From Apostichopus japonicus (lineage: Eukaryota; Echinodermata; Holothuroidea; Aspidochirotida; Stichopodidae), in NCBI RefSeq assembly GCF_037975245.1, contig NC_092561.1, positions 7,732,001 to 7,796,000 of the forward strand: a stretch of 64,000 nucleotides of DNA, read 5' to 3'. This document shows, piece by piece, positions 1-24,700 of the stretch. Both the position numbers and the translations under genes were made by a program. Each line of letters opens with the position of its first letter. The stretch's first letter is position 1. The notes beneath the pieces are model-generated. The model had not been told where the DNA came from, made no database searches, and saw nothing but the letters and a program-made list of their open reading frames with translations.

Positions 1-444
1 ATCACCGGAAATGGCACATCCCATGCATGCCTTGTAAGTTGAATCTGAAAATTCTTTATTTTGAGATCTGATGATTGAGAATTTTACACTTACAAAAAAA
101 AAGGTCAATTAGCAGAATTGTATTAGATGAATTGAATGAAGGACTTAAGGTAATAAGCTCTGCCTTATTCACTGTTTACACAGGTAAATGAAGATATAAA
201 AGCACACCAGGGCTTTATTATGATAGCTGTAGCCTGTATGAAGTGGAGAAGCCATATGGGGAATTTAGGTGTAAATAAGTTGTTATCATTATTTCTTCTA
301 CATCCCAAGAAGGGACTTACTAGGGGAAGGAGGGGGGGGATGAAATGAGTGGGTGGGCCAAGTAGGGGACTGTGCCTCAATAATGTTAGTTAAAACATTG
401 GGGTACTGTTATATAGGAGCTGACATTAAAACTGATAGGCCAAC

Positions 445-1131
445 CAGGGCCGTCTTAAGAGATCACCGGGCCCTGGGCCCGGCAATGGAGCGGGGCCCCT
501 CAATCAAGTGAGTCCGAAAAAAAGTTGCGTGAAAAATTGACATCCTTGACAATCGCTCAAGCATAGACATGCCTGCATTTACCACTCCTCCCTATGTCGC
601 GCATAAAGCATAAAACTTTAGCTGAATAACATACATGATATATCTAAAAGCTGAAATACATTATAGAAGAGTAATCTTCTAGTTGCCCTCCATCCCTTCC
701 CTAACAATACTGGACTCACCATTTGTAACACCCTTGTGTTGAGTCGTTCAACTGGGGAAACTAACGAAATTTGCGGCATTTCTTGATCGTAAACTGTTGT
801 ATGATTGGCTGAAAGTCAATTATTTTGAGGATGTCGCTTTCTATGCATATGGGAGAGAGCCTATTAAGTCCGAGTTGTCTGGTGTTGTTAGCCTTCGGGG
901 CATTGTATATTCCAGGGTTGCCAACTCAGATTCGAATATTTAATGTCAAACTCTCAAGTGTTTCACCAACTCTCGTCACAAGTTGTCAAGTATCGAATTC
1001 AATCAGGCATAATGGCCTATTCAATAAGTTTTCCTCCCAGATTAAGACATGGGATTACTACGATTGCGGGGCCCCGGCATCGCGGGGCCCTGGGCCAGGG
1101 CCCAGTGGGCCCATGCGTTAAGACGGCCCTG
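445..1131. mobile_element. Non-autonomous hAT-type transposon, 687 bp
   Basis: Perfect 14-bp terminal inverted repeats: CAGGGCCGTCTTAA at the left end and TTAAGACGGCCCTG at the right end. Both ends are flanked by the same 8-bp direct repeat AGGCCAAC (437-444 and 1132-1139). An 8-bp target duplication plus CAGGG-type termini is the hAT superfamily signature. The subterminal DNA is rich in GGGCCC. There is no transposase-like ORF, so the element is non-autonomous. Copy B carries AGGCCAAC only once (14811-14818) with no insert, which is a precise empty site. Confidence 0.93.
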
Positions 1132-2713
1132 AGGCCAACATAAAAGTACATATAGACGTAATAAATATATCCATGAGCCATAGTTTAGTAATAAAGTTCT
1201 ACACTGTTCACGATAAAATCTTAGGAGTTCTCTACGTGAATTGTTATTCTAAAAAAATGATCAGTTATAATTAACCCTGTGTTTTATTGTTTGGAACGCC
1301 ATTCCTACAATACGTGCCTAGGAACTTGAGGTTTCACTGCACTAATCTGACTAATGAAATCAGAAGAAATGATATGAACAGTTTGCTTAAACTAAGTGAA
1401 ATAGTGCTCACTGCCTAAGCATTCACATTATCTTAATCAAAATATAATTTACATATAATGTTATATTGCTTATATTGTACGTGACAAACAACATATAAAA
1501 AAATATAAAAATAAAATAAAATAAACTAGAATGGAGATTAGCGAATGCTGCAGGCTTTCATTATCTCCTTGCTCAGCATATAGCCTCACCGGTGTATGGG
1601 CCCGGTTCCTCAGTTAATTTACGCTATAAATGAAATCTGTAATTCTTATATCTTCAACCCAGTTGAAGTTGTAATTTCATTGGGGGTTGAGCAATTGAGA
1701 ATGAAACATTAATAACCAATTATCTCATAGCACAATGAGATGTATTATGAGATACACGAGTCATTATGAGCCTGATAATGGGCTAGTGCTTACAGGAGCC
1801 AGCCACTAAACCTGGGTGGAGAAATTTGATGTTATTTCTTCCACCTCTCAGAAAGAGGAATGTGCCCCCCTGCCCCCCCCCTCCCTGCCGTGATTGATGC
1901 CCCTGCTTGTACAGACAAAAGTTTATACCTAAGATTACACCAGTTGACGCTTAGAAAACATAAAATTCTGGGTGTGGACTCCTACATCCCGACAAAGTGT
2001 CTACTACAATGACCCAAGTGCAGCCCCCCCCCCCTTCTCCCCTACTTAAAATCTATCATTCTCCTCTGGCCCATCAACACAATTTTTAACGCCATACCTT
2101 AATCGATTGGGGGAGTTGAATTTGCTCCCCTCCATACCGGCGTGTGTGTGTTCAAGGGGGGGGGGGGCGCCTGTGTTTGTGATGGCTAGAAGAACTAGTT
2201 GAGTCAATGTCGTGCTTGGTACAGTAGGTAGATGCTCCTTGTTGGTTAAATGTTCTCTATTGTTTGTGCTTCCCGTTTCATGCATATTGATGAGTGGGCG
2301 GGGTAAACGTACAATTCATATAATGGCAATATCTTTTCAAACCTATGTCTGATTTAGTTCATACTTGGTATGGTGATGTAACTATATAGTAAGTATATGC
2401 TCTTTTCAACAACTTTGACCTTGTTCATATTCATGATTTGGTGGGGCGTAATGGGAAATAGTCAAAAACAGCTTGAAAACACATATATCTCATCAACCAC
2501 AAGTTGAATAAATGTCATACTTGGTAAATGCCTCATGATTGAAATTGGTAGAGGTTAAAAGAGGTCAACAGGTAACAAAGTTCCAGCACTATCAAAGTCA
2601 GTGTGGTTGGGTTTGCCATCAGCAATATCCGAACAGTTCCATTATGCCAGTGATCGAGTTGCACCAATATCTAGACTTCTGTCTTGATAGGGCAAAGAAA
2701 TACCCGTCATACC

Positions 2714-2840
2714 GTAAGTTAAAAAGAACAGCTTTTAAATTCAGTTCATTGAAGGTCTTGCTACTTAATTTTCTTGCTCTCAATTTGTTAATCCAAATGA
2801 TGATAGTAATAAACATTTAACATGATATTTTTCTTTACAG
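2714..2840 (+). other. Probable 5'UTR intron of TRIM copy A
   Basis: A GTAAGTTA donor follows 'cgtcatacc' at 2714. A pyrimidine-rich acceptor 'ttttctttacag' ends at 2840, 19 bases before the TRIM start codon. In copy B the same positions read GTAGGTTA (16471) and 'cttttctttacag' (ends 16597). The sequence upstream of the start is not protein-like in either copy. In B an open frame happens to run through from 16296, but in A that frame is stopped, so I treat it as untranslated leader. Transcript data would be needed to confirm the donor. Confidence 0.5.
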
Positions 2841-2859
2841 CTTAAATTTCGCGACAAAA

Positions 2860-5666
2860 ATGGCCTGCCCATCGCCTTGGAAAGACATCGAAGATAAATT
2901 CTTTGAATGTTCCATTTGTTTGGATCTGTTTAAAGAACCGAAACTATTACCGTGTCTACATAGATTTTGTAAACCATGTCTGGAACCTATACTAGAAGGA
3001 CAGGTTGGGACATTTAAATGTCCTCTTTGCAAAGATGTCTGTAAAATACCAAACAATAGGATAGATGGGTTCAAGACTGACTTCCATATGAAAAGTATGC
3101 TGCAGTTTATTCAGCTACAGAAAACATTTGAAAATGAAGAAGTTAGGGTCTGTGTTGGCTGTTCAAAGAAGTTAAAGGTTACAGCATACTGTTTTAAGTG
3201 CAAAGATTTTCTTTGTGTCCAGTGTTATCAATTCCACTCGACCAACAAGATGGTTGCTGATCATCGGGGAAATGTATTAGCTCTGAAAGATGTTGAAGGA
3301 AAGAGTCTCACATTAGAAAAACTTGCATCATTGAAGGAAGCCCTTAGGTGCCATGTTCATACAAAATTTAAAGCTCAGTTATGTTGTTGTACTTGTGGAA
3401 ATCTCCCTGTTTGTGTGACATGTACGTATGGAAAACACAAAGGTCATGACCTACAAGACGTTGCGAATGTGTCGAAAGAAGAAAGAGAGAGATTGCAGAA
3501 GAGATTGGAAGAACTTGTAAAACTGAAAGAAAATGTAACCAGCTTAACTGATAAAATAAACAAAGTAAATGAAGAACTTACATCAGTCGTTGCAGATACA
3601 AAAGCAAAATGGAAAACACAGTACGAAGATCAGACCAGGAAGTTAAAGAATAAGAAAGAGAAAGAAAAGAGAGAATTCAACAGATTCAAAACAGTTCTTG
3701 AAGAAAGGAGTCGAAAAGAATTGCAAAAATTAGAAACAGAAATGGAAGAGAAGATTAGAGAAATAAGAGACGAGTACGACAGGATGATTAAAATCAAAAT
3801 TAGGGAATCAAAAGAGAAAGAGGAAACCAAACAAAATGAAATAGAAAACAGTGAATTAAAGATTGACGAAACAATGAACAAACTTGATGCTGTAATGAAT
3901 GAGAGAAATAAAACAATAGAAGAACAACAGCAACGCAAGCTTAGAGAAACACAAAACTTATCAGATCTTTGTAATCAATGGGTCAATAAGTTTGAAAATA
4001 TGTCTACTATAGCTTCGAGTGTCCTTGAATCACACAACCACTGGACAGACGCACAGTGCATTCCTGATATAAGAGCTGCGAGCGAACCCCTAGTTGAGGA
4101 TCTTATGAAAGATTTTCCAGAAATGGAATCTTTATCTGATATAACAATGGATGATCTACCAATGTTGTGTACTGATAGAGTAAATATATCGGATAATGTA
4201 GAATCTGTTGTTGATATTGATGTGATCAAAGGTACTTGGTTTTGTTTAACTGGTATAACAAGTACTGGCTCTGGTAACAACGTCATCTCTGGGATGTCAT
4301 CATCTGTCCATTCATTTATCACAGTGATAAACAGACAAGGACGTCAGATTCGTCAAAACAAGATAGATAAAGGCAAAGGGGGCTCTCTTCCCATTCGTTA
4401 CTGTGCTGCTTTATCACGTGATAGGATAGCTTCGGTGTGTAAGTCCAATCAGCTTGTTGTTTATAATATTCATGGTGGGTCCTTGACTCAAAAAAACATC
4501 ACGTCCTTCTTTGGTGACATCAAAACGGTGGGTAAGAAATATGCGAGTTGTATAACTACTGATACTATACGTGGCCACATCATTGTAGGTTCATCTATTG
4601 GATCGCTATTCATATTTGATGAAGAATTGAAGTTCATTCGAGCTCTGAAGCTGCCAGAGGTTATAAAATGCCCAAGAGATATCCTTTATCATGAAGGCGT
4701 TCTGCTGATATGCGATGAAAAGAGTAGATGTGCATACGCTGTTACCATGGATACATCTAAAACAGAGGGAGAGTTACTATACAAGCTTCCGATACCAGCT
4801 ATTGACGGAAAGACGTATCCTTGGAGTATATGTGCAGACAGGGCAGGTTTTGTATACATCTTGTGGGCATCGAGTGTATGTCATCCTGCAAAATTTATCA
4901 TCACACAGTACAGTCAAGATGGTCAGCAGTTGTTGACAACCAAACGGACAGAAGATACAGCACGGTGTATAACAACATTGATGACAGAGGAGGGAGAGAA
5001 ACTACTTGTAGCTACATCACGGTCGGGAAAGATGCTTTGTTATGGTCTGGTAAGTATATCTCAGTGTTCCTTACTTTAATATGATTACTACTAGTAACAT
5101 ATAAATGTTGTTGTCGGGATACTCTGATGTAACGACAATTAAATGGTACATTCAGCTTTGATAATACCACCAAGGATATCATCTTCCTGTATTGACTTTA
5201 TGTATGACCAAGTAGCATATAATATTTATAACTTTAAAGATAGTTTTTGCCTGAATTTAGCTCAAGTAATAGTATATAAATTAGTAGAAGTTATCTCTTA
5301 AACCCAATATACATTAAACTAAAGTGCAAAACTTGTTCACTATTTCCTTTTACGGAATTGAAAGAAGAAAAATTAAGAATTTTAACGAGATAATGGTACT
5401 GTTGTTGACAAGACATCGCAATGCCAACTTAAGATGATTAAAAAAAGAAAATAAACAACAAAGGTCAGAACAGGGAACATAACAGGCAAGAATGGAAAGA
5501 AGAAAAGAAAAGAAAAGAAGGGATTTGTTCGCTGAAAAAACATTACACAAAGAATCGACATCTAACATGTCTTTTTTGTTCATTCAAAAATGTGCTTCAT
5601 GAGAATAGAGAACTGGATCAACGTTTGTAACTTTATAAATGTTCTTTCCAACAGACACCAGAATAA
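2860..5666 (+). CDS. TRIM-type RING/B-box E3 ubiquitin ligase, copy A
   Basis: Predicted as join(2860..5049, 5655..5666), 733 residues. The RING finger is C3HC4: C17, C20, C32, H34, C37, C40, C54, C57. B-box 1 spans about 98-135 (C98, C101, C111, C114, C119, C122, H126, H135) and B-box 2 about 164-196 (C164, H167, C185, C188, H193, H196). A long charged coiled coil covers about 205-390. The last 300 or so residues contain repeated beta-strand-like motifs resembling the propeller-type C-termini of TRIM56/TRIM71-like proteins; I cannot assign NHL repeats by eye. The start is the first ATG after a good acceptor, in the context acaaaaATGG. At codon 730 a GTAAGT donor interrupts the frame, and a 'ttctttccaacag' acceptor at 5654 adds Thr-Pro-Glu and a stop. 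Unspliced reading would end at 5079 instead. Known role of the family: ubiquitin transfer, often in innate immunity. The substrate is unknown. Confidence 0.9.
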
Positions 5667-6294
5667 AGTCAACCTGAAAATATACATGAAAGAAACGAAT
5701 ATCCAGAGTATACACCACACACTGAATCGAAATATCAAAGGCTGGGTGCAGCTGATGAGGAGAGAATTATCAAAATTTGCTGAAACAAACTAGAAAATTT
5801 AAGATGAAACGGATCATGATGATTAAGATCGGTCTTCTTAGTTTATATAGTTTCATTAGAATGAATTGAAAGGTGGAAAGAATTAGACCGTCAACCCATT
5901 TAGCTTAACGGTTACTTTTTTACAACATTTAGTCACAAAACAATAAGGTACAATAATGACGTAGACATATGTTTTACCAAACCTCGCTTAAAGTTGGCTG
6001 CGAAGGAATATTAATCAGAAGCTGACCGAACTTTCATATTTTCGGTGTGGTATTAATGACTTTTATGGAACTTGTAAAGTTAGATCTCGAAAATCAAGTA
6101 CATTGAAACATATGCGTAGAACTGCTGACGTTAATGCGAGTAAATATGGATGTGGAAACGTGTCTTTACGATTATAATTTACCACATGAACATGTGGGAA
6201 AAATCGAATGGCTTAAAACTTCGCTTCACATCTTGTGTTTATCTAATGGACAGTTTTAAATCATTTTTCTTTACAATTCGGATTATCATTTCTA

Positions 6295-6435
6295 CAGTGG
6301 ATTAATAGGGACATAGGAAAGAAAGATTTTGAGATAAGTAGTCAACTTTTTATTTCAAATTATTGACTTAATAAGTCAAACTGTTGACTTTTGATCTCAA
6401 TTTCTTTCCTTTCCAATGTCCTTATCAAACCACCG
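6295..6435. mobile_element. Foldback MITE with TA target duplication, 141 bp
   Basis: The ends are CAGTGG...CCACCG, flanked by TA on both sides (6293-6294 and 6436-6437). The two arms are inverted copies of each other for about 50 bases: the left arm runs GG-TTAATAGGGACATAGG and the reverse complement of the right arm runs GG-TTGATAAGGACATTGG. Only about 35 bases lie between the arms. TA duplication with CAGTG-type ends suggests a Tc1/mariner-type MITE. Copy B lacks the element at the aligned position (about 20000), although the empty site there is not exact. Confidence 0.75.
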
Positions 6436-6860
6436 TACATTTAAGAAAGGAAAACTGTGTATTTGTCCTGCATGAAGACCCACTTCAGCATACTTTAGCC
6501 GTGGTCTGATTTCACTGCTTCTTATGATATTCGCTCAACTATAGTATCTACTGCATGCATAAGATCTGAAATAGTCGATTGAAGTAAAATCCAAAAGTGG
6601 AGAGGAGTGGCAAGTGATATGAAGGGTGACAAGCTGGCTCCGTATTATTAGAAAATACCAACAAAAGTATTGTTGCTCTGTTTTGTTCAATGATAATAAT
6701 TTCGAATGAAGAACAGTCATATGCAGCCTCCAATGCTAAATCTTTCTTTCGATTAGCGTGTGGGACTGCAAAACTAGCCGAATTTGTCATGTTTGATCTT
6801 TTAATATACGATTTAATCATATAAAGGACTTTTTTACTACTCTGTTTTCCTATAAACGAA

Positions 6861-7590
6861 TGCGATGGTTTCGGGTTATTATTATTATTATTATTACTAA
6901 TCTTTATGCATTATGTTCCAGGGCCCCACAATTAACCGCGGTCCCGGGCTGTAATATACTGATGTCAAACCCCCCTCTCGTTAGGCCTGGCTACTATGTA
7001 CTATACTTTAACATAACATAAACAATTATGAATGTTATAATGAAAAATATTATCAACAATGTTCTATTCAGAGTAATACATCTCTTGTGATACACTAAAT
7101 CAGCATAAATGGTTTCTCGTATATATCACTTTAATACCAGACTAGACGCTTTTAAGGTCGGAATACTCGAACCAAAATTGTCTTCTGAACATTTCTTCCA
7201 GGTAAAATAGTATCTTATTATAATATATAAACCACCTACGCAAGTTACAATGTTAATGTCCGGAGCATTTCATGTGTAATATCGACAAAGATGGTGTGAT
7301 CTTCAAAATATTTCACGGTTTTATTTCATTTGATTTCTTGACGGTTTGATAATGTTTAGCATGATCCCGGACTCACCTTTAATTCCTTTACGTGAAAGGA
7401 TGTTTCTCGTTGTAGGTAAATATAGGAAAACACATAGAAGAGCTGTTTGTTACCAGTAGTCACCGCCAGCAAGTCATCATATTATAGTTTGGTCTGCTTT
7501 GGAATTGAGGTAGTTGCAGCTACAAGTCAATACAACTATGCCTTGAAGCAGAGGTAACCGTGAAGGGAGACAACGTCGCGTAGGTAACAA
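6861..7590. other. Intergenic, no gene seen
   Basis: AT-rich sequence after the end of copy A. It contains a short ATT run near 6881 and a GC-rich fragment, 'cagggccccac', near 6919 that resembles a hAT terminus but has no partner. No ORF or RNA gene is recognisable. Confidence 0.6.
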
Positions 7591-8027
7591 ACGTGATGTA
7601 AGTCTATTACTGTCTTAGTGGTTAATATAGGTAATTGTCAAGGGGAGCCTCTGCCTCATGAAGGAGGTAACATGAGGTAAGTTTATTACTGACTTAGTGA
7701 TTCATAGAGGTAATTGCTGAGGGGAGTCTCGTGGAGGAGGTAATATGAGGAAAGATTAATACTGTCGTTATGTAAAAAGGTAATTGTGGAGGTAAGCCTC
7801 ACAAAGGAGGTAACGTGATATATGTTTATTTACTGCCTTTGTGATACTGGAGATAATTTTGGAGGTAAGCCTCATGTGGGAGGTAACGTGAGGTATGTTT
7901 ATTTACTGTCTTAGAGATTAATAGAGGTAATTATCAAGGTGAGCCTCGTGGAGGAGGTAACGTGAGGTAAGTTTATTACTGTCTTAGTGATTAATGGAGG
8001 TAATTGTGGAGCCTCATGATGATTAAG
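7591..8027 (+). repeat. Minisatellite, about 73-bp unit, six imperfect copies
   Basis: Repeats begin near 7594, 7670, 7744, 7815, 7888 and 7962. A typical unit contains 'gtgaggtaagtttattact', 'gtcttagtgattaat', 'ggaggtaatt' and 'gagcctc...ggaggtaac'. Copies differ by point changes and short indels, so the array is not newly amplified. Several units contain GTAAGT-like words, but no coding exon is nearby. Confidence 0.85.
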
Positions 8028-8236
8028 CCTATATATTGTGTTCGTCAACAATGAACCAATAAACAACTAAATATTTTTTGTAGTCCTAAAAGATTCTGAC
8101 CCTCCAATATATTTTCAAAAAGATATGATAAGTGCATGTGAGATATTTCTTATCATTGGCCATGACAGTAAAGCAATAGTCAACGTTCGACATGCGAGAG
8201 CGACCATTATCGACATGTTTTGTATATTTGGCAAAA

Positions 8237-9086
<850 letters not shown>

Positions 9087-9796
9087 ATTTATTATTATTA
9101 TAATTATTATTATAAGACTTCTATTTGCTATAATTATTGGAACTATTCAAAATCTGCTTTCTGTTACAGAATGAAATAGAGCATAACGTAGTAAATACTA
9201 ATACAATACTATTATAGCTCGCAGTGACCAATGATGAGGCACAGCCAAAAGCTTGAATGGACATGCTTAAACAAACCACTACAACCACACGAAACATATG
9301 TACAACAGCTAACGAAATAAGTCAACACAACTAGAGAAAACATTTTGAATGTGCATAAAATTAACTTTGTTCTTATTATTCTTTGTTGGATTGAGGTCAA
9401 TATACTTTTCACCGTTTATTGCAAATTTAAATTTATAAAGAATTCCTCCATACAAAGATTCTTGTTTTGGCGACTATTTTGGTAAATACGATTGTTCCCA
9501 TGTGGAATTAAATAGTTATTTGGGTAAAATGTAGTATGTAGTTATATCCCCATCATATTAATTTAAACATTTGCTCCCATGCCTCTTTGTCTTAAGAGTA
9601 ACTACTTACTTCCTGTTCATGACTTATTCACCCTACACCCACATGATATTCGTAGAAGCCCCCTTTGTCTTAATTCCATGAACTATTCATGCTGAAGCAC
9701 AGATGACAACCTGTTGCATCTCAGGTGTATTACAAATATGGTTAGTCATAGCACTCTCCTATGTGCCTTGTAATTATAAGTAAGACCAAGAGTTTA
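9087..9796. other. Intergenic, no gene seen
   Basis: AT-rich sequence between the GAT array and a possible solo LTR. It starts with a short ATT-rich run, and I find nothing else recognisable. Confidence 0.5.
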
Positions 9797-10007
9797 TGTC
9801 ACAGAGAGGTTATCGCCCCCTCACAGGAAGTTGAAATGATTTAAATACTTTAGTTTTTTAAAATGTAAAAGACTAAGATTTCAGACTTCAGAGAGTGTAC
9901 TTCAGATACACTCCAGCAATAAAGCTTTTACTCTAGAATTATATCTATGTCTGGAGTGTCTCTTTGTTTGTTGTTCATTATTTATTAACGGAGCACCCCA
10001 ACGTAAC
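9797..10007 (+). mobile_element. Possible solo LTR, about 211 bp
   Basis: The segment begins TGTCAC and ends GTAACA, an imperfect inverted pair with the TG...CA ends expected of an LTR. It contains AATAAAG (about 9918) followed by a T/G-rich stretch, as in an R-U5 region. The flanking pentamers (GTTTA and GTACA) match poorly, so the target duplication is not convincing. The right end abuts the downstream end of the LINE relic. Confidence 0.3.
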
Positions 10008-10009
10008 AG

Positions 10010-11896
10010 TACATCCATTCCCAAAGCCAAAAAGATACATTTTTTGTGAAAGAAAAATTACTTTCTTAAAAAAACAATTATCCACTTCTAAAATCAACTT
10101 TGATGTGAACTGACAATCCCAAAACAAGTGCACAAGACTTTCATCCTGTGTTGTATAGACGGTACTCTGGCTATTCTTAGTTCACCCATACTAAGCAAAA
10201 GTTTGTTTATCGCAAATATTCTATGTAAAAAACGGATTTGAAAATAAAGCAGTTTTACATCACAAACAGTAGAACTCGGCATTTAATAAAAACAAATGCC
10301 AGTTCTCTTCCGTGAAAACCTTGAACTTTTTATTCCATTTTCCTAATGCTGCAGGTTTCTTAGTAATACGAGAAAGCATCTTAGAATAAATGAATTGAGA
10401 AATCGAAATAGCATTCATGACCGTGTTAAGTCAATGGCAGTTGTGATTAATTGATTCAGTGTTTATACAGCCAAAGTATAGCGAAAAAGGGAATCTATCT
10501 GAATTCGGCGCATGAACCAATTATAGGCCATTAGACTACCGAACTGATCAAACAAGTCGCTGACATGATACATTCATCTTAAACAGGTGATATACATAAC
10601 CACCGCATTATCTACAGGAATAAAGAAATTATTCCAGATGAATTGATGAACTATTCCAGATGAATTGATTACCGAAATTCTCAGTTGGACTGTTAAAGTT
10701 AATGTAACACCCAAGCATATGCAACTTGATTAACAAACGCATTATTAATATTGTGAATATCTTCTTAAAACAATTGCACTGAACAAAAAGATTTTGCCAA
10801 ATGGACCTAACACAATGTCGAAAACACTTTCCAGGGACCATGTATATCATTGCAGTATCGTTTAACCCAGGTACACTTTAAATTCTTAATGAAACTTTCC
10901 ATATGAGTAACTTCAACCTCACTAATAGGACTGATACTTGTTGACCGTTTAATTTTGTCCGGGTTGCCAGACCAAATAAAATAAAAAAATAAAAATTTCA
11001 AAAGCTTACTCGGATGACTAAAAAACTAGCGTGAGGGGCAATGTTATGACAATAAGTTTATCGGACAAAAAGGTCATTTTTAAGAAAACCAAACTACGTA
11101 CGAACGACTGCTCCGCTCTCAACCCCAGTCCCCTTGCATCGGGAATGTGACCGTGTGATCATCGTCGGGCGTGCATCACCAATCCCCTCGAAAGGGAACA
11201 GATACTACACATGATCCAAAAGGTGTTAAATCACTGGACGCCCATGTTTGAACAATTTGAAACAAATTGGAATTGGTTAAATTAATTGAAGGCCCGACGC
11301 CTGATATAGCAAATTAAATCCCTTATAGTTGAAGTGAGGGACTCCTTTCTATCATCTAGCAAAAAAACAAAAAGCGGTGTCGTCTGCGTATTGTAAAACC
11401 TTAACTTTCTGACCACTAATAATTATGCATTTAACATTTATATTATTTGTAAACTTTTAGAGCTAATACTTCGGCAGCCAGAATGAAAAGATAAGGACTC
11501 AGTGGACAACCTTACCTCAATCCTCTGCTGAAGCGGAAAGGAACCAATGGAGTGACCGTTGTTACAAACACAGGCGTTGCTATCGTTGTAAAAAGCCCGG
11601 ATCCATTGTCTTCGACTCTTGCTGAACTTAAAATAAGATAATGTTCTATGTATAAACTTCCACTCGAGCTTATCAAAAGCTTTCTCGAAATCAATTAAGA
11701 AAATAAAACCTGTAATGCCCGGATCAGAAGAATACTTAATTAAGTCTAAGACGTACCTTCTGTTTTCACCAATAAACATGTTACTAAGCAAAATGCAGGC
11801 TGGGGACCTATTTGAAAGATTTGAAAGAATACGTTTTAATGTAGACGCAATCGCCTTAGAAGCAATTTAATATGATGTTTAGAAGTGAAATAGGCC
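10010..11896 (-). pseudogene. Decayed L1/Tx1-like LINE (reverse transcriptase ORF remnant)
   Basis: Read on the minus strand from about 11896 downward, the pieces fall in the order of a LINE ORF2. First comes a RPISLLN motif, then a block with FIGENRRY and LIDFEKAFD (11870-11560), then a GCPLSPYLF block (about 11500), then the catalytic YADDT box (about 11385). Further down are FIWSGNPDKIKRST and a block ending WVKRY (10980-10840), then a late region with FLHRIF and a LVHLFWDC zinc-knuckle-like motif (10280-10110). Each block is in a different frame from the next and several stops interrupt them, including one right after the RGLR of the RT domain. No endonuclease domain is visible; the 5' part is lost at the ATT array. 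It is a dead retrotransposon with no host role implied. Confidence 0.88.
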
Positions 11897-11899
11897 TAT

Positions 11900-12031
11900 A
11901 TTTTTTATCATTATTATTATTTATAATTATGATTATGATGATTGTGATTATGATTATTATGATTATGATTATTTTTATGATTATTATTTGTTATTATTAT
12001 TATTAATATTATTATTATTATTATGATTATA

Positions 12032-12081
<50 letters not shown>

Positions 12082-12152
12082 CATCACTATTATTGTGGTT
12101 ATTATTATGATCATCATTATTATTGTCATCATTATTATTATGATTATTATTC
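11900..12152 (+). repeat. ATT/GATT-rich trinucleotide array
   Basis: Runs of (ATT)n and (GATT)n with scattered TCATC interruptions. It lies exactly where the LINE homology stops, so it may have expanded at the truncation point. The Ile-rich open frames are artefacts of the repeat. Confidence 0.95.
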
Positions 12153-12159
12153 AACTTCC

Positions 12160-13110
12160 ATCGTTACTATGCTTACTCGCAAACCCTGTATTGATTTTTG
12201 TGTGCATGTGTACGCACCGAGTGTAGAAATACAGCTGTGCACCACTGAGTGTAGATCAGTGCCCTGCACAAATGTACCATTAAACAAGTTACGGGAGGGT
12301 GTAAGGCAATTGCTAAATACACTAACACCCAAATTATCAACAGGGGATTTCCATTATTATCGCCTGGTTTTGGACGTTCACCGGTACTTTGCGTCTCGTC
12401 TGTTGTACTTTCATTTAGTTTCTTTGAAAAACAACAAAAGCAACAACAGCAACTAGATAAAGTATGATTCAAGTACTTTTGATATTTCAACGTGAAATAC
12501 AAAGACGCCTTAATACTCCATTGTCTTAAAGCTAAAAGGACAAGGTTAGTAACTATATCTGTTCCGCGATAGGTCTCTGAGTTCAATGTGTGCATGAAGG
12601 TACACAGTGTATCATAGCTTTCGGCCATTTTAACCCGGAAGTATTGAATAGTGTGAGGGTTGGTTATAAAACTGAAGTACAGTAGATAATTACGGCGTTA
12701 AACAGCGAGTTCTGAATCGAGTACAGTAATAATGTTCTATGATAGGTATTTAACAACTTAATGGAATACTTTCGAAGTACCTAGGCAACACTATTTCCAA
12801 TATAATAAACACCATATTACAACTGACGGGAATAAGACTATAATATACTGTACATATAACTGTACATGTGTATTGCTTCTGCCATTGATAGTACTGCATA
12901 AGACCTTCCCAATAAAAGTCAGATCAAATGACATATGATACCAATTTTAAGAGCTGCCACATGAAGGTACTAATGTTAAATGACTATAACTATCTGCCCT
13001 GTTTAAGTATAAGGACATCAAGCTTCTTGGAGAAGCTACAGGTGAAAATATATTATTAGCACAATATTGCGTTCAGGAGCTACTTTACACAGGGGAATCA
13101 ATCCCAATTG
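12160..13110. other. Intergenic, no supported gene
   Basis: A 151-codon open frame on the minus strand (12173-12628) and shorter plus-strand frames overlap one another here. None resembles a known domain or shows convincing coding bias. I treat the interval as non-coding. Confidence 0.5.
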
Positions 13111-13114
13111 AAAA

Positions 13115-13163
13115 GTGGGGTGGGCAGGGGTGTGGGTGGGGTGGGTGGGGTGGGTGGGGGAGG
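13115..13163 (+). other. G-quadruplex-type tract
   Basis: Nine runs of three or more G separated mostly by a single T (pattern GGGGTGGG...GGGTGGGGG). Short loops of this kind favour a stable quadruplex on the plus strand. It is followed, after a short gap, by a GC-rich repeat-like stretch (13200-13310) containing palindrome-like GGGGCCC words. Confidence 0.75.
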
Positions 13164-13488
13164 ACATAAATAACTTAACATGCATACAAATGAAGGAGTG
13201 AGCGTCTTGGCGCAAAGGCTGTATCGGGTAGGGTCCAGGGGCCCGCCTTAGGCTCCTGACGGGGTCCAGTGGCTAAGTCCCTGCGGGGTTCAGGGGGAGG
13301 ACTCACACCTAAAAATCGTCAAGTTTACTTCTGTTTGGTCCTTGAATTGATATGCCAGTCATAAATATATGTTAACAAAAGTCACATCTGACAAGTGATA
13401 AGACATAAATTAAGAAAGACATATCTATTCAGCATCTAGTTGTTACTTAGGTCCTTTATTGTGATAAATAAAATTGAAACTTAAAACA

Positions 13489-14363
13489 AACGGAAACATT
13501 CTAAAACTTTGCACCCAAGAAAAAAATCTCACCTTGTTTTCAGATATCTACAACATGCACACATATGGTAATATAAGTACATGCTTAATTCTTTGCATTT
13601 TGTTCAATCATTACTTGTCACTAATAAGTTCCCCTATGGGGATCGATTAAATAGTCCTGTAGAGACTCAACGTTTGCGTTATCTCATATATTTATTATTT
13701 ATAGTATACGCAATGTATACTTTTGATGTAAAATACCAATCATATCAGTTCAGCGTGGGTGTTCTCGTCATATCAAAGTCCAATCTCAATTTCATATAAG
13801 TTTCGTGCGTTGTTTTCATTGTAGGCTACATACGTACAATGTACAGTGTATATTATCATGTATTTCCTTCCTGGTCCGACTCGAAATAACGTAAGAAAGA
13901 AAAATCTGGCTAGGTTAATAACTTGATGCAAGAGTACTGGAAAAGGTAAACATTAAAGTAAGGTACGGTAAGTCTTAGAAATGCATAACGGTTATAATTT
14001 CAAAAATGTCTCCTTAGTTCATCAGTATTTTGATATACCATTAAGAGGGATAAAATAGAGCAAAATTGCAATAGTGATTAGTATTATCGTTAATTTTGTA
14101 TATCTATTGCCGTTGTTATATCACTAAGCTAAACAATCAGAACAGAACAGATATCTAGGTCATAGCCATGATACCGAATTCACTAAACCCTGAAGTTATA
14201 AACTGACTGATTGAGTAAACTTCGAATCATCATGTATTGTCATTGCAAGTCAACTGTTTAAACATAAAAAGGTAAACATTCTTAAACTTTGCATGCAAGA
14301 AAAAAATCACCTTGTTATACAGATGTCTGCAACATGCAAACATATGGTATCAGAAGTACATTT
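13489..14363 (+). repeat. Two direct copies of an about 95-bp segment
   Basis: 13489-13582 and 14266-14363 align: both contain an 'aaacattct-aaactttgca' segment, then 'caagaaaaaaat', 'caccttgtt', 'caacatgca-acatatggta' and 'agtacat'. The second copy ends just before copy B begins at 14382, so it may mark an older boundary of the duplicated unit. The rest of 13320-14381 holds no gene that I can see. Confidence 0.75.
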
Positions 14364-15806
14364 AAGATCATTGTTGGTTACATCACCGGAAATGGCACTT
14401 CCCAGGCCTTGTAAGTTGCATCTGAAATTCTTTATTTTGAGATCTCTTGATTGAGAATTTTACAATTACAAAAAAAAAGGTCAATTAGAAAAATTGTATT
14501 AGATGAATTGAATGAAGGACTTAAGGTTATAAGCTCTGCCTTATTCACTGTTTACACAGGTAAATGAAGATATAAAAGCACACCAGGGCTTTATTATGAA
14601 AGCTGTAGCCTGTCTGAAGTGGAGAAGCCATATGGGGAATTTAGGTGTAAATAAGTTGTTATCATTATTTCTTCTACATCCCAAGAAGGGACTTACTATA
14701 GGGGAAGGGGGGGAGATGAACTGAGTGGGTGGGCCATGTAGGGGACTGTGCCTCAGTAATCTTAGTTAAAACATTGGGGTACTGATTTAGGAGCTAACAT
14801 TGAAACTGATAGGCCAACATAAAAGTGCATATAGACGTAATGAATATATCCATGAGCCATAGTTTAGTAATAAAGTTCTACACTGTTCACGATAAAATCT
14901 TAGGAGTTCTCTACGTGTATAGTTATTCTAAAAAAAATGATCAGTTATAATTAACCTTGTGTTTTATTGTTTGGAACGCCATTCCTACAATACGTGCCTA
15001 GGAACTTGAGGTTGCACTGCACTAAGCTGACTAATGAAATCAGAAGAAATGATATGAACATTAAGTGAAATAGTGCTTACTGCCTAAGCATTCATATTAT
15101 CTTAATCAAAATATAATTTACATATAGTGTTATATTACTTATACTGTACGTGACAAACAACATAATATAAAATATAAAAAATAATAAACTAGAATGGAGA
15201 TTAGCGAATGCTGCAGGCTTTCATTATCTCCTGGCTCAGCATATAGCCTCACCGGTGTATGGGCCCGGTTCCTCAGTTAATTTACGCTATAAATGAAATC
15301 TGTCATTCTTATATCTTCAACCCAGTTAAAGTTCTAATTTCATTGGGGGTTGATCAAATGAGAATAAAACATTAATAACCAATTATCTCATAGCACAATG
15401 TTTTCAGAGCTCCTTTTATGAGATACACGAGTCATTATGAGCCTGATAATGGGCTAGTGCTTACAGGAGCCAGCCACTAAACCTGGGTGGGGAAATTTGA
15501 TATTATTTCTTCCACCTTTCAGAAAGAGGAATGTGTCCCCATGCCCCCCCCCTCCCTGCCGTGATTGATGCCCCTACTTGTACAGACAAACGTTTATACC
15601 TAAGATTGCACCAGTTGACGCTTACAAAACATAAGATTCTCGGTGTGGACTCCTACATCCCGACAAAGTGTCTACTACAATGACCCAAGTGCAGCCCCCC
15701 CCCTTCTCCCCTACTTAAAATCTATCATTCTCCTCTGGCCCATCAACACAATTTTTAACGCCATACCTTAATCAATTGGGGGAGTTGAATTTGCCCCCTC
15801 CATACC

Positions 15807-15890
15807 TCCACTCTGTTAAGCTGCTCATGCCACTGAGTGACTCTTTGTGGTTTTATGATGTTGAAGGCTTGGTTACTTTGCAATAGTGAT
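15807..15890. other. 84-bp segment present only in copy B
   Basis: Copy A joins 'ctccatacc' directly to 'ggcgtgtgtgtg' near 2138. Copy B has 84 extra bases between these words, and they carry no recognisable terminal repeats. The segment is followed by a 17-G homopolymer (B) against 11 Gs (A). This looks like a deletion in A, or a slippage-related change beside the G run. Confidence 0.7.
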
Positions 15891-16616
15891 GGCGTGTGTG
15901 TGTTCGCGGGGGGGGGGGGGGGGGCGCCTGTGTTTGTGATGGCTAGAAGCACTAGTTGAGTCAATGTCGTGCTTGGTACAGTAGGTAGATGCCCCGTGTT
16001 GGCTAAATGTGCTCTATTGTTTGTGCTTCCCATTTCATGCATATTGATGAGTGGGCGGGGTAAACGTACAATTCATATAATGGCAATATCTTTTCAAACC
16101 TATGTCTGATTTAGTTCGTACTTGGTATGGTGATGTAACTATATAGTAAGTATATGCTCTTTGCAACAACTTTGACCTTGTTAATATTCATGATTTGGTG
16201 GGGCTTATTGGGAAATAGTCAAAAACAGCTTGAAAACACATATATCTCATCAACCACAAGTTGAATAAATGTCATACTTGGTAAATGCCTCATGATTGAA
16301 ATTGGTAGAGGTCAAAAGAGGTCAACAGGTAACAAAGTTCCAGCACTATCAAAGTCAGTGTGGTTGTGTTTGCCATCAGCAATGTCCGAACAGTTCCATT
16401 ATGCCAGTGATCGAGTTGCACCAATATCTCGATTTCTGTGTTTATAGGGCAAAGAAATACCCGTCATACCGTAGGTTACAAAGAACAGCTTTTAAATTCA
16501 GTTCATTGAAGGTCTTGCTACTTAATTTGCTTGCTCTCAATTTTTTAATCCAAATAATGATAGTAATAAACACTTATCATCATACTTTTCTTTACAGATT
16601 AAATTTCGCGACAAAA

Positions 16617-19418
16617 ATGGCCTGCCCATCGCCTTGGAAAGACATCGAAGATAAATTCTTTGAATGTTCAATTTGTTTGGATCTGTTTAAAGAACCGAAA
16701 CTTTTACCGTGTCTACATAGATTTTGTAAACCATGTCTAGAACCTATACTAGAAAGACAGGTTGGGACATTTGAATGTCCTCTTTGTAAAGATGTCTATA
16801 AAATACCAAACAATAGGATAGATGGATTCAAGACTGACTTCCATATGAAAAGTATGCTGCAGTTTATTCAGCTACAGAAAACATTTGAAGATGAAGAAGT
16901 TAGGGTCTGTGTTGGCTGTTCAAAGAAGTTAAAGGTTACAGCATACTGCTTTAAGTGCAAAGATTTTCTTTGTGTCCTGTGTTATCAATTCCACTCGACC
17001 AACAAGATGGTTGCTGATCATCGGGGAAATGTATTAGCTCTGAAAGATGTTGAAGGAAAGAGTCTCACATTAGAAAAACTTGCATCATTGAAGGAAGCCC
17101 TTAGGTGCCATGTTCATACAGAATTTAAAGCTCAGTTATGTTGTTGTACTTGTGGAAATCTCCCTGTTTGTGTGACATGTACGTATGGAAAACACAAAGG
17201 TCATGACCTACAAGACGTTGCGAATGTGTCGAAAGAAGAAAGAGAGAGATTGCAGAAGAGATTGGAAGAACTTGTAAAACTGAAAGAAAATGTAACCAGC
17301 TTAACTGATAAGATAAACAAAGTAAATGCAGAACTTACATCAATCGTTGCTGATACAAAAAGGAAATGGAAAATGCAGTACGAAGATCAGACCAGGAAGT
17401 TAAAGAATAAGAAAGAGAAAGAAAAGAAAGAATTCAACAGATTCAAAGCAGTTCTTGAAGAAAGGACTCGAAAAGAATTGAAAGAATTAGAAACAGAAAT
17501 GGAAGAGAAAATTAGAAAAATAAGAGACGAGTACGACAGGATGATTAAAATTAAAATTCGGGAATCAAAAGAGGAAGAAGACACCAAACGAAATGAAATA
17601 AACAACAGAGAATTAAAGATTGACGAAACAATGAAAAATCTTGATGCAGTAATGAATGAGAGAAATAAAACAATAGAAGAACAACAACAACGCAAGCTTA
17701 GAGAAACACAAAACTTATCAGATCTTTGTAATCAATGGGTCAATAAGTTTGAAAATATGTCTACTATAGCTTCTAGTGTCCTTGAATCACATAACCACTG
17801 GACTGACGCACAGTGTATTCCTGATATAAGAGCTGCGAGCGAACCTCTTGTTGAGGATATAATGAAAGATTTTCCAGAAATGGAATCAATATCTGATATA
17901 ACAAGGGATGATTTACCAATATTGTGTATTGATAGAGTAAATATATCGGATAATGTAGAATCTGTTGTTGATATTGATGTGATCAAAGGTAAATGGTTTT
18001 GTTTAAGAGGTATAACAAGTACTGGCTCTGGTAACATCGTCATCTCTGGGAGTTTATCATCTGACCATTCATATATTAGAGTGATAAACAGACAAGGACG
18101 TCAGATTCGTCAAAACAAGATAGATAAAGTCAAAGAGAGCTCTCTTCACCCCTATCGTTACTGTGCTGCTTTATCACGTGATAAGATAGCTTCGGTGTGT
18201 CAGTCCAATCAGCTTGTTGTTTATGATATTCATGATGGGTCCTTTACCCAAAATAATATCACGTCCCTCTTTGATGACATCAAAACGATGAATATGGTGT
18301 ATGCGAGTTGTATAACTACTGATCCTACACGTGGACACATCATTGTAGGTACATCTATTGGATCGCTATTTATATTTGATGAAGAATTGAATTTCATTCG
18401 AACTCTGAAGCTGCCAGAGGTTATAAAATGCTCAAGAGATATCCTTTATCATGAAGGCGTTCTGCTGATATGCGATGAAAAGAGTAGATGTGCATACGCT
18501 GTAACCATGGATACAACTAAAACAGAGGGAGAGTTACTATACAAGCTTTCGATACCAGCTATTGACGGAGAGACTTGGTATCCTTACAGTATATGTGCAG
18601 ACAGAGCAGGTTTGGTATACATCTTGTGGTATAGTAGAACTGGAACATGTATCATCACACAGTACAGTCAGGATGGTCAGCAGTTGTTGACAACCAAACG
18701 GACAGAAGATACAGCATGGTGTATGACAACATTGATGACAGAGGAGGGAGAGAAGCTACTTGTAGCTACATTACAGTCGGGAAAGATGCTTAGTTATGGT
18801 CTGGTGAGTATATCTCAGTGTTCCATACTTTAATATGATTACTACTAGTAACATAAATGTTGTTGTCGGGATACTCTGATGTAACGACAATTAAATGGTA
18901 CATTCAGCTCTGATAATACCACCAAGGATATCATCTTCCTATATTGACTTTATGTATGCCCAAGTAGCATATAATATTTATAACTTTAAAGATAGTTTTT
19001 GCTTGAAATTAGCTCAAGTTATAGTATATAAATTAGTAGAAGTTATGTCTTAAACCCAATATACATGAAACTAAAGTGCAAAACTTGTTCACTATTTCCT
19101 TTTACGGAATTGAAGAAGAAAAATTAAGAATTCTAACGAGATAATGGTACTGTTGTTGACAAGACATCGCAATGCCAACTTAAGTTGATTAAAAAAAAGA
19201 ACATAAACAACAAAGGTTAGAAAAGGGAACATAACAGGCAAGAATGGAAAGAAGAAAAGAAAAGAAAAGAAGGGATTTGTTTGCTGAAAAAACATTACAC
19301 AAAGAATCAACATCTAACATGTCTTATTTGTTCATTCAAAAATGTGCTTCATGAGAATAGAGAACTGGATCAACGTTTGTAACTTTATAAATGTTCTTTC
19401 CAACAGACACCAGAATAA
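16617..19418 (+). CDS. TRIM-type RING/B-box E3 ubiquitin ligase, copy B
   Basis: Predicted as join(16617..18803, 19407..19418), 732 residues. Domain order is as in copy A: RING at residues 17-57 with all eight ligands kept, two B-boxes (about 98-196), a long charged coiled coil, and a C-terminal propeller-like domain. I start at the ATG after the acceptor (ends 16597) because it is conserved in both copies. An upstream in-frame ATG at 16296 exists only because copy B lost a stop, and it would translate intron sequence. The donor is GTGAGT (18804) and the acceptor 'ttctttccaacag' (ends 19406), again adding Thr-Pro-Glu. Against copy A I count about 6 replacements in the first 240 residues, about 16 in the coiled coil and about 53 in the C-terminal 300, plus small indels. 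Role: probable ubiquitin ligase; target unknown. Confidence 0.9.
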
Positions 19419-20412
19419 AGTCATCCTGGAAAACACACATGAAAGAAAGAAATATCCAGAGTACACACCAGACTGAATCGAAATATCAAAGGCTGGCTGC
19501 AGCTGATGAGGAGAGAATTATCCAAATTTGCTAAAACAAACTAGAAACTTTAAGATGAAACGGATCATGATGATTAAGATCGGTCTTCTTAGTTTATATA
19601 GTGTCATTAGAATGAATTGAAAGGTGAAAAGAATTAGACCGTCAACCCATTTAGCTTAACGGTTACTTTTTTACAACATTTAGTCGCAAAACAATGAGGT
19701 ACATTTGACGTAGACATACGTTTTACCAAAGTTGGCTGCGAAGGAATATTCATCAAAGGCGGACCGAACTTTCATATTTTCGGTGTGGTATTAATGACTT
19801 TTATGGAACTTAGATCTCGAAAATCAAGTACATTGAAACATATTTCCGTAGAACTGCTGACGTTCATGCGAATAAATATGGAGCTGGGAATGTGTCTTTA
19901 CGATTGTAGAACATGCGGGATAATTCAAATGGGTTGTAACCTTGTTTCACATCTTGTGTTTATCTGATTGACAGGTTTAAATAATTTGTTTCTACAATTC
20001 GGAAGATCATTTCAGATAGGAAAATTGTTCAGTTTTCCAGCTTGAAGAACCCAGCTTACTTTAACCGTGGCCTGGTTTCATCGCTTCTTATGATATTTGC
20101 TCGACCATAGTCTCTACTGTATAAGATCTGAAAGATTCGATTTAAGTATAATCCAAAAAGTGGAGAGGAGTTGCAAGTGATATGAAGGATAACTAGCTCG
20201 CTCCGTATTATTAGAAAATAGCAACAAACGTAATGTTGCTCTGAATTTATTAAAGATAATAATTTCGAATGAAGAACAGTCATTTACTGCCCCCAGTGCT
20301 AAATCTAGCCTGTGGGATGGCAAAAACTAGCCGAATTTGTCATGCTTTGTATTTTAAGATACAATGTAATCATATATAAAGGACTTTTTCATTACTCTGT
20401 TTTCCTATGAAT

Positions 20413-21260: not shown

Positions 21261-21742
21261 ATCTATATATAATGTAGTTTATACCTGATTACGTGACTCC
21301 TGTGACCTAAAATGTTTTCGGATAATGTATCTTATTGATTGAACGACCAAACAAATATTCAAGTTAAACATAATCTGCCATTTAACACACGAAGTGTATA
21401 TTCTGTTAAATGTCTACTTTCATTAACACACAGACCTTGAGGTAAAAAAAAAACCAGCAGTATTCACATGACACCAGCAGCGGATACACTTCAACCACTC
21501 TATATGGCACTACATCATATTTAATTATAACTGATGGCAGGTTCTTTAATATACCACTGATCTGATCCTCTCGCCCAGATCAGATTTAAATTAGCAATAG
21601 CTACGTTTAGTGATATTTGAATACTTGAGTCATGTATGAAGAAGTTTTGTTTGCACATAGCGAAAAAGTTGATAACGTCCAGGACGTTGGAAAAGTTCTT
21701 TCGTGTACCATATATGCATGCACGGCTAACTACAATCTGATC
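21261..21742. other. Upstream region of the UGT gene
   Basis: No clear TATA box or initiator can be picked out. An ATG at 21632 is in frame with the UGT start but would add 37 residues in front of the signal peptide, so I treat it as leader sequence. Confidence 0.4.
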
Positions 21743-24700
21743 ATGTCGTCGAGTATTTTATTATGTTTGTCTTTAATAGCAATGTGGGTGATGTCCGCGA
21801 GCGGTCACCAAACGGCAAATATATTGATGGTCTTTGAACAACCTGGTACAAGTCATTTCAAAAGCGCTGCGGCTGTTGCCAGAGTTCTAAGTTCACGTGG
21901 GTACAATATCACCTTCCTTCTGCCAGAGCCGTACCATACCTACCCAGCTGCATCGCAATATCGAGACATATTCTCTTTTCTTCACATTCGCAAAGGTTGT
22001 AGCCGAAAATCTTTGATCGTCGACGCCGAGCAACTGGCGCAGGACGTCACCATTGAGTCTGACTCGACTAGTTTGCTCTTTCAACTAATCAAGGCCGTCG
22101 CAGATGCTTTTCTTAAGTCATCCGAAGATCTTCTATGTGATGTAGAATTAAATGACGAAATCATGTCATCTAGGTTCGATCTGATCATGACTGACGCGAA
22201 TTTTCTCTGGCAACAGGTTTTGGTACAAAAATGCCGGACATACCTCATGGTCTAATTTCAACGACAGCAACTTCATCTTTGACAAATTCTTGGATTAGAG
22301 CGCCAAATTTACCTTCAGTTTTACCTGGCTTTATGATCAGAACCCATCATCGCAAGCCATTGTCTTTCTTTTGGAGGACTTACAACACAGTTTTTATTTA
22401 TGGAGCCGTGATATTCTTCTCGGCAGTGTTGGATCCGTTGATGGGAGTTGTGACTTCTTCTTACAGTTCATCCGTGTCTCATTATCCTACGATAACATTT
22501 GGTCTCTCCGATATCTGGTTAACCAATGCCGACTTCACCACCGACACTCCTCGGCCCTTCTTGCCAAATATGGTTTTAGTTGGCGGTCTTAACATCGAAG
22601 AACCAGAGCCACTCAGTGAGGTACATATATATATACAAAATGAAATACGATAACACTGACGAGGGTATAGGTTAATGGGGAAGGAAGTGCACTGTTATTC
22701 ACTTCTGATTTAAATGTTCTCAAATGAAAATCACATTTCTGCAATCTGTTTTCTAATAATCCCACTTCGTGAGGTTAATCCAAGCAAGTCTTATTATTAT
22801 TTTATATTGGTGTGTTTGTTTGTTTTTCTCTTTGAAAGATTTCAGATTATCTTAAGATTATCGCCTTAAATGACATGTAATTACCCATCCTTGACCTCTG
22901 TGGCTCTTCAAAACAGAAAGCCGGCCACTTTAACGCTTAATTGACTGGTTCAGTACCTGCAGGGTTTATCAGGGTGCCCTTTCACTCTACTGTGAATTGG
23001 GGACGAATGACCTAATTTCATCTCAACACCTGGTCAAAAACAAGGACAACCAACCGGGTCAAAACGGCAATATCATTGAGAATGAGAAGGCTGTGTAATT
23101 TGCATGTGAGTTTTCAGTAACTCTATATACTGTTGAGTATTGTTTGAGGTATAGAGCCTTCCCCAATCCTATAGAAACACATGTCTGTTACTGACTGACA
23201 AAGGGAACATTGGGTAATGAAATGAAAACAAATGGCTCATGATTATATAGAGGAAATGTATCGCTGGCAAAGAGCAAAAATTAGTTGCCGCATTTCTCGG
23301 CCTCACCAAAAGAAGAAGAACAGAAAAGATTGTTCGAACTTTCAGAGTTCCCGATTAGCTCAGAAAATTAATTCTTATGAAAGTATGTTGTCGTGGTTAC
23401 AGACAGATTCATACGTATTGATTATAGTTGTCCTGCAGCTGAAGATATAGTTATGACGTAATAATCACCACCACTATTGTTTCACTTAGGAATACCAAAT
23501 GATCTTCGACAAGGCTGGCGCTGAAGGTGTCCTGGTCGTATCTATGGGTACAGTAGTTGACGGAGTATCACAAGAACAAGCTGACGTCATGTCGGCAAGC
23601 TTTGCCAGACTTCCTCAACTCGTCATTTGGAAGGAACCCAACCCACCTCCTCGGGTCATTGGCAACAACACTTACCTTAAAAAATGGATTCCTCAGAAAG
23701 ATCTAGTCGGTAAGATGTCTGATTGTTCACACTTTACATTACTATCGGGGTTGTAGGTGCTGCGAATCGGGACTCGATACTCACCCAACAGACTCCTCCA
23801 TCCGTCCGTCCATCCCCATCATTTCTTTTCAGCAGCACCTGACGATCCAATCAAAGTATCTGAATATAATGTATTCATACTAAACCAAGTTGAAATGTAC
23901 CATGGAATCCCCTCTGATGTAGAAAGGTGACTCTATCACCCTTACCAAGATCCCTTCTGATGTAGAAAGGTGACTCTAGCACCCTTACCAAAGCCTCTCC
24001 AATTAGTTCACTTCACCCTGTCTGCATTTTCTTTCTTGCAATTCGGTCAACACGTTTACCCAACCCATACAGTATTATTGATAATATGATTGTAATTGAC
24101 GGAATAAAGGAATGTCCCCTAGCCCCTTGTTGATGTCACCATTTGTATCATTTGCGTGTAGGAAACTGGAAAACGTTTACAAATGCGAGCTGTTTACTTT
24201 ATTTGTTAAAGATTGACTATAGTCTAGTCAATAGCCAACGTTTTTATGAAATAACATCGAGTTATCAAGGCACGACACCACCATCGAATTGATAGCAGTC
24301 AAGTCAAAGTGCATCCATGTTCTCTTTCTTGCAAAAAGAGTCCGGAAAGCGTTTGCCTAGATATTGCCTTAGTTATTGTGAACGAAGTGTAGGAAATGTT
24401 TGGCTCGGAAGGTTTCAATGTCGTGCAATTACAGCCGTCGTAAAACCCTCGATATCTAATAAAACACACACACATACATGTTTGTATTACATTCAGACCG
24501 AGGACCCCATTGTATTTTCCATTGTTCAAATCCACGTACCCTAACCTTAACAATACCCCATACAATAGAATTCTTCCGGGGACGTGATGATTCTTTAGAA
24601 ATCACAACCGAGGACCTGGAATTTTTTTGTTCAAGTCCTCGGTCAGATAGAAAAACAAACACAAGTAAACTCGAAAAACATTTTGTCTACTGTTGAAACC

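Follow-up and report, generated by a model that had tools for sequence, protein, structure and literature searches.

The 64,000-nucleotide stretch of the Apostichopus japonicus genome analyzed here (the window; positions 7732001-7796000 of contig NC_092561.1, contig C1 in our numbering, in a genome of 671,581,487 bases on 35 contigs) carries two copies, A and B, of a TRIM gene that is part of a far larger family. Likelihood analyses of the family revealed that diversifying selection acts on roughly one in ten codons of the C-terminal domain, while the N-terminal half is conserved. When mapped onto a predicted propeller fold, the codons under selection are enriched in the B-C and D-A loops, all of which lie on one face of the propeller. 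Our findings suggest that A and B probably belong to a large, tandemly expanded germline repertoire of TRIM56-like ligases that diversifies a recognition face.

Selection on the C-terminal domain across the family

Copies A (locus L001, positions 2860-5079) and B (L004, positions 16617-18833), which like all features described below lie on the plus strand, are complete, intact and intronless open reading frames of 739 and 738 amino acids, respectively. They share 89% protein identity, and their starts and stops are common to their paralogues. A preliminary description of the locus had placed the end of B at 18803, 30 bases short of its stop. It had also regarded A and B as an immune-type sensor pair, which is too narrow a view, as they are two of at least 136 distinct TRIM places on nine contigs (at least 44 on C17, 30 on C1, 25 on C2, 18 on C20, 14 on C10, two on C16, and one each on C9, C11 and C22). 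These places emerged from three protein searches of the genome combined, each of which scored its best candidates; the first scored 61 matches among 1229 first-look candidates, and two further queries scored 62 and 63 matches. An open frame of at least 700 codons is present at 119 of the places, and in the family copies that were read no intron interrupts the coding sequence.

We analyzed three subfamilies. Subfamily 1 comprises 37 near paralogues that are 75-100% identical to A (39 loci, L001-L039, matched at 76% identity or higher, minus a fragment and a copy with an internal stop), the C17 subfamily comprises 13 genes with 37-42% identity to A, and the C2/C20 subfamily 11 genes with 38-40% identity. 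Loci L040, L041, L043, L044 and L046-L048 entered alignments only, while 12 of the 61 matches of the first search and most matches of the other two lie outside the retrieved set. With site likelihoods from our own MG94-type code, we measured how far the fit improves under a mixture that allows omega (the ratio of replacement to silent rates) to exceed 1, and individual columns were scored on a FUBAR-like grid.

In subfamily 1, the mixture raised twice the log likelihood (2dlnL) by 647 for the C-terminal domain, versus only 11.6 for the RING finger and B-boxes and 18.1 for the coiled coil. The distribution of columns with a posterior above 0.95 was similarly uneven: 29 of 345 were found in the C-terminal domain, none of 206 in the RING and B-boxes, and two of 214 in the coiled coil. 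After masking of gap columns and their neighbors, the gains were 255.9 for the C-terminal domain and 36.1 for the N-terminal half. Four gene groups analyzed alone yielded C-terminal gains of 30.6 (for the local group of four genes), 210.9, 131.6 and 143.1, and N-terminal gains, in the same order, of 2.6, 10.8, 7.3 and 4.8. Six segments of the C-terminal domain, each with its own tree, gave 31.0-140.4. The other two subfamilies displayed the same contrast, with C-terminal and N-terminal gains of 66.3 and 1.2 in C17 and of 149.9 and 1.9 in C2/C20.

Null simulations helped to gauge these values. Eight runs on a single tree gained at most 3.0, and 12 runs of recombinant data, generated on six trees and analyzed as one, gained 8.8-26.9 with no more than two columns falsely exceeding 0.95. 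Recombination can therefore explain much of the N-terminal signal, but not the C-terminal one. The preliminary description had proposed selection on a recognition-type C-terminal surface from a comparison of A with B; the family strongly supports the proposal, although the pair does not.

Codon by codon, A and B differ by six replacement and six silent changes in residues 1-205, exactly as first counted by eye, by 17 and 10 in residues 206-395 (first read as 16 and 7), by five and six in residues 396-440, and by 47 and 12 in residues 441-739 (first read as 53 and 10), where the three small in-frame indels noticed earlier were also found. The early counts were thus about right. The excess of replacements over drift that had been drawn from them is not established for the whole domain: path-counted changes in residues 441-739 amount to 58.4 on 686 replacement sites and 14.6 on 202 silent sites, giving a replacement rate (dN) of 0.090, a silent rate (dS) of 0.076 and an omega of 1.19 (bootstrap 95% interval 0.72-2.21; Fisher p 0.38). 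With an interval that spans 1, we rejected pairwise dN/dS as proof of selection, and only the predicted top-face loops described below show a nominal excess (pN 0.189, pS 0.080, one-sided p 0.04). The contrast between regions is nonetheless real. Nei-Gojobori omega is 0.25, 0.34 and 0.15 for the first three regions, respectively, and 0.26 (0.15-0.46) for residues 1-419 taken together. A non-significant gene pair can hide a very strong signal that becomes visible only in the family.

We also considered flanking DNA as a neutral clock for the pair. The aligned near flanks of A and B differ at 103 of 2571 sites (4.0%), less than C-terminal replacement sites do (p 7e-6). However, divergence at synonymous sites in the two genes, at 8.6%, is also above that of the flanks (p 9e-5). 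The flanks therefore do not serve as a clean clock, and we rejected this comparison. The twofold gap between synonymous sites and flanks points to different histories.

The predicted propeller face

TRIM proteins are E3 ligases by virtue of their RING end and dimerize through their coiled coil, and by kinship the same is expected of this family. From sequence comparisons, the layout of copy A appears to be that of TRIM56: a RING finger, two B-boxes, a presumed coiled coil and an NHL-like propeller. The RING finger (residues 17-57, positions 2908-3030) matches PF00097 with an E value of 7.6e-11, and all 12 family members scanned score above the cut-off for this family. Among structures in the Protein Data Bank (PDB), it matches TRIM56 (5jw7, E 1e-14) after TRIM3 (8amr) and TRIM2 (8a38). 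A B-box-like finger at residues 97-136 (positions 3148-3267) matches PF22586 below its cut-off (E 0.013), and B-box 2 at residues 161-199 (positions 3340-3456) matches PF00643 with 19.6 bits, below the cut-off of 24.1. PF00643 is listed with two stretches in each of the 12 members and exceeds its cut-off in two of them (L019 and L040). Residues 206-395 (positions 3475-4044) are a presumed coiled coil by position and charged composition. The predicted NHL-like domain spans about residues 450-739 of A (positions 4207-5076) and, by alignment, positions 17964-18830 of B. In a phmmer comparison with PDB sequences, this domain matched the NHL domain of Mei-P26 (7nyq, E 3e-5) and Brat (E 0.15).

NHL domains are six-bladed propellers with four-stranded blades (described in passages of PMC9070667 and PMC9634614), and a classification excerpted from PMC3503706 places TRIM56 in subfamily C alongside the NHL TRIMs. 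In the best known antiviral TRIMs, the C-terminal domain is B30.2/SPRY instead. No such domain was found among the Pfam matches listed for the 12 members, so the likeness to known antiviral TRIMs claimed in the preliminary description does not extend to the C-terminal fold, which here seems NHL-like.

In propellers, the B-C loops lie on the same face as the D-A loops, referred to here as the top. We mapped loops by sequence, taking strand borders from the NHL-type pattern and from alignments with Mei-P26 and Brat. On this predicted map, selected columns of subfamily 1 fall on 19 of 78 top-loop residues, one of 43 bottom-loop residues (p 0.0015) and six of 153 strand residues; the remaining three of the 29 columns, at residues 438 and 453 and at an insertion next to 669, are off the map. 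Replacement-to-silent rate ratios (beta/alpha) follow the same pattern, with 2.16 in top loops, 0.73 in bottom loops and 0.87 in strands, and the replacements between A and B number 24 in top loops, five in bottom loops and 17 in strands.

The loop mask in its actual position scored best among 274 circular shifts, and top exceeded bottom in all 2000 trials in which borders were jittered by up to two residues. A mask-free test detected a 50-residue period in variability (block-shuffle p 0.0004). Transferred by alignment, the mask gave beta/alpha values (top, bottom and strand, respectively) of 1.42, 0.64 and 0.87 in C17 and of 1.72, 0.61 and 0.77 in C2/C20. Strongly supported sites in C2/C20 favor the top (six of 74 top, none of 41 bottom and three of 154 strand residues; top versus rest p 0.015, top versus bottom p 0.087). 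Since the mask was drawn after the variable columns had been seen, the period test and the other two subfamilies carry more weight than the fit in subfamily 1.

Ten predicted top-face loops of copy A contain selected codons: DA0 (residues 456-461, positions 4225-4242; codons 456 and 458), BC1 (480-485, positions 4297-4314; codon 482), DA1 (505-512, positions 4372-4395; codons 505, 509 and 512), DA2 (550-560, positions 4507-4539; codons 557-559), BC3 (579-582, positions 4594-4605; codons 580 and 582), BC4 (620-623, positions 4717-4728; codon 620), DA4 (646-654, positions 4795-4821; codon 651), BC5 (670-678, positions 4867-4893; codons 670-672), DA5 (697-702, positions 4948-4965; codons 700 and 702) and BC6 (720-723, positions 5017-5028; codon 721). 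They form a defined list of loop positions for binding tests. The replacement patches GMSSSVHS, KTVGKK and WASSVCHPAK, already singled out by eye, map for the most part to the predicted loops BC1, DA2 and BC5, respectively, and the three A/B indels lie in DA1, DA4 and BC5, one in each.

Proposed recognition, exchange and competing explanations

If the TRIM56-like copies do form a recognition repertoire, the variable propeller face would bind targets that vary from copy to copy and shift with time, most likely pathogen or other non-self proteins. Binding would cluster the TRIM, and its RING could then ubiquitinate the target or a signaling partner. Tandem duplication, exchange between loci and selection acting on the loops may give rise to new specificities; targeted mutagenesis was also weighed as a possible source of the variable codons. 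Vertebrate TRIM56 uses its NHL-like domain for contacts with viral RNA and proteins, and this domain is needed for restricting several viruses (according to portions of PMC11768893), and passages of a sea urchin study (PMC13043383) report 140 genes annotated as TRIM, several of which rise in coelomocytes after ultraviolet B exposure. Given these antiviral contacts and the sea urchin response, an immune role is likely but unproven.

A bolder version, which we put forward only tentatively, is that of an intracellular, antibody-like germline repertoire. More than 100 TRIM ligases would share one scaffold, each copy presenting a distinct combination of B-C and D-A loops on one propeller face, and recognition domains would be exchanged between loci, and even between chromosomes, more or less independently of the RING halves.

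Several observations weigh against the proposed repertoire or weaken its support. For selection, the masked N-terminal gain of 36.1 is higher than any recombinant simulation, so weak selection or other misfit in that half is not excluded; the gain of 30.6 at the local four-gene locus has no simulation of its own for calibration; and the A/B pair alone is not significant for the whole C-terminal domain. For the fold, both the propeller and its face come from sequence mapping rather than a structure. No Pfam NHL match is among those listed for the 12 members scanned (25 of 26 rows for L045), other propeller families appear below their cut-offs (an EML propeller in L040, E 0.007; WD40 in L045, E 0.07), and HH self-alignment for blade repeats is weak (best E 0.034), with its third to fifth hits putting blades 1, 3 and 6 in one register. 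For the face, the timing of the mask leaves only the other two subfamilies as out-of-sample tests, the period test is also weakly positive in its N-terminal control (p 0.025), and in C17 the top is favored only by the beta/alpha ratio, not by the four strongly supported sites (one of 69 top, none of 41 bottom and three of 157 strand residues). For function, we infer the immune role, and the ligand with it, from evolution and kinship.

The face might instead diversify to recognize something other than pathogens, such as self versus non-self, gametes, symbionts, or rapidly changing host targets such as transposon products and endogenous mRNAs. We consider this unlikely. The sequence evidence bears on diversification, not on the ligand, and there are precedents for RNA: RNA binding is described for the NHL top faces of Brat and Lin41, and binding of single-stranded RNA for Mei-P26 (passages of PMC9070667). 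However, the net charge of the predicted top loops ranges from -7 to +7 with a median of -1 among 37 members, whereas the RNA-binding faces in the same passages are positive. Relative to the C-terminal domain, the listed variable positions are enriched in tryptophan (5.1-fold), arginine (2.2-fold) and tyrosine (2.0-fold). Variable positions rich in these residues and lacking a common charge would fit a protein or varied ligands better than a single class of RNA. Against a reproductive role, reproductive proteins are, to our knowledge, rarely hundred-member RING ligase families.

Exchange between copies offers another explanation, in which gene conversion or unequal exchange among divergent paralogues brought in the replacement patches and mimicked positive selection. 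Exchange itself is real. In subfamily 1, the N-terminal tree and the C-terminal tree each reject the other (log-likelihood differences of 195 and 536, with fewer replicates of the approximately unbiased test than recommended). In the same subfamily, binned dS rises from 0.09 to 0.13 in the C-terminal domain and from about 0.08 to 0.34 in the N-terminal half, leaving aside the six closest pairs. C-terminal dS in C17 exceeds N-terminal dS in close pairs and drops to 0.55 times the N-terminal value in the most distant pairs; in C2/C20 the two are similar (1.33 and 1.06). Because a slower C-terminal clock would hold the dS ratio constant, the two halves differ in history, for which exchange between loci is the simplest explanation. 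The pairwise homoplasy index on all sites was significant in both halves (p 0.001-0.012). When restricted to synonymous sites, it was significant in one of three testable sets (N-terminal half of a 3.7-megabase cluster, p 0.009), the others being the N-terminal half of 37 genes (p 0.075) and the C-terminal domain with 14 sites (p 0.74). As a source of the selection signal, however, exchange is very improbable, as the recombinant null tops out at 26.9, far below 647, and C-terminal segments with their own trees all remain significant. Furthermore, exchange alone would not pick out one set of loops, and the N-terminal halves recombine with little signal.

Relaxed constraint after duplication, with loops drifting because nothing depends on them, is more doubtful still. 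It would agree with the whole-domain omega, which is near 1 on average (0.84-1.54 by dS bin), and with in-frame stops in some copies (L003, one at C1 positions 21521520-21523712, and others), which make birth and death of copies seem to be under way. But the bottom loops, which are loops as well, have a ratio of 0.73 and a single selected residue, the top-loop ratio is above 1 rather than at 1, and long open frames persist at the great majority of places. Finally, it is scarcely credible that A and B are allelic haplotypes assembled in tandem: although their flanks differ little and some pairs elsewhere in the family (L034/L035 and L013/L015) are nearly identical, the starts of A and B are 13.7 kilobases apart with non-duplicated sequence between them, two more distinct copies (L002 and L003) lie upstream, and synonymous divergence is 8.6%.

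With these alternatives weighed, the proposed TRIM56-like repertoire can be compared with known systems. TRIM56 has the order of domains predicted here and a similar length (755 versus 739 amino acids), and its NHL-like domain is required for antiviral action; however, it is one human gene with isoforms, not a family with at least 136 places and a diversified face. The term 'positive selection' does not occur in the available text of a TRIM56 review (PMC11768893). A parallel in mode of evolution is provided by the finTRIM (ftr) genes of teleosts, which combine lineage-specific expansion, selection in C-terminal loops (site-model 2dlnL of 208 for B30.2) and recombination (sections of PMC2657112). 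The resemblance ends there, as finTRIMs are fish proteins with B30.2/SPRY, another fold, and the present family is from an echinoderm. TRIM5alpha, as recounted in the same sections, also has a C-terminal recognition domain under diversifying selection, but the domain is B30.2, and the comparison there is between primate species, not between paralogues of one genome. In the NWD/HNWD NLRs of Podospora, selection acts at a few positions per repeat on a beta-propeller binding surface, and exchange occurs among family members (parts of PMC4986451); those are WD40 propellers with near-identical repeats in NLR-type proteins, while the blades here are diverged and the effector is presumably a RING ligase.

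TRIM-NHL proteins of class VII, or subfamily C (Brat, Mei-P26, LIN-41/TRIM71 and TRIM2/3/32), are mostly developmental regulators with low copy number. They have a six-bladed propeller to which the present domain is akin in sequence, as the Mei-P26 and Brat matches indicate, but with no Pfam NHL match among the listed rows. An expanded B-box orthogroup is reported for bivalves in excerpts of PMC8382680. The 2017 A. japonicus genome paper describes other expanded families, and in its available text the two matches to 'trim' refer to read trimming (PMC5638244). Searches of an open-licence library, which excludes subscription papers and preprints, brought up no account of a diversified NHL-like face among the 12 to 20 best-ranked papers of each (of up to 222 that contained the terms). 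TRIM arms races are known from vertebrate B30.2 domains; the same mode appears here on a predicted NHL-like propeller, in three subfamilies and more than 100 genes of one echinoderm genome, and points to an additional repertoire for recognition inside the cells of such an animal.

Surroundings of the two copies

A and B lie within a tandem segmental duplication. The block with copy A (positions 1-6853, gapped) matches the block with copy B (positions 14382-20408) in four blastn pieces of 82-94% identity. Of the two copies upstream, L003 has an in-frame stop a few codons ahead of the usual end. Elsewhere in the family, L012/L017 and L024/L027 are nearly identical, as are the two such pairs mentioned above; all four may be very recent duplicates, products of recent exchange, or haplotypes put in tandem by the assembler.

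Downstream of copy B, at positions 21629-22653, two overlapping frames match consecutive parts of UDP-glucuronosyltransferase (PF00201) and represent either an intron-containing gene or a frameshifted remnant. The window also contains long microsatellites at positions 8129-9100 (a GAT-type array open in several frames), 32953-33486 and 37960-38400, the other two types being a five-base array and a TA-rich array; open frames in such arrays are not evidence of genes. At positions 43542-43956 lies a short tandem array of diverged copies that are about 81-85% alike.

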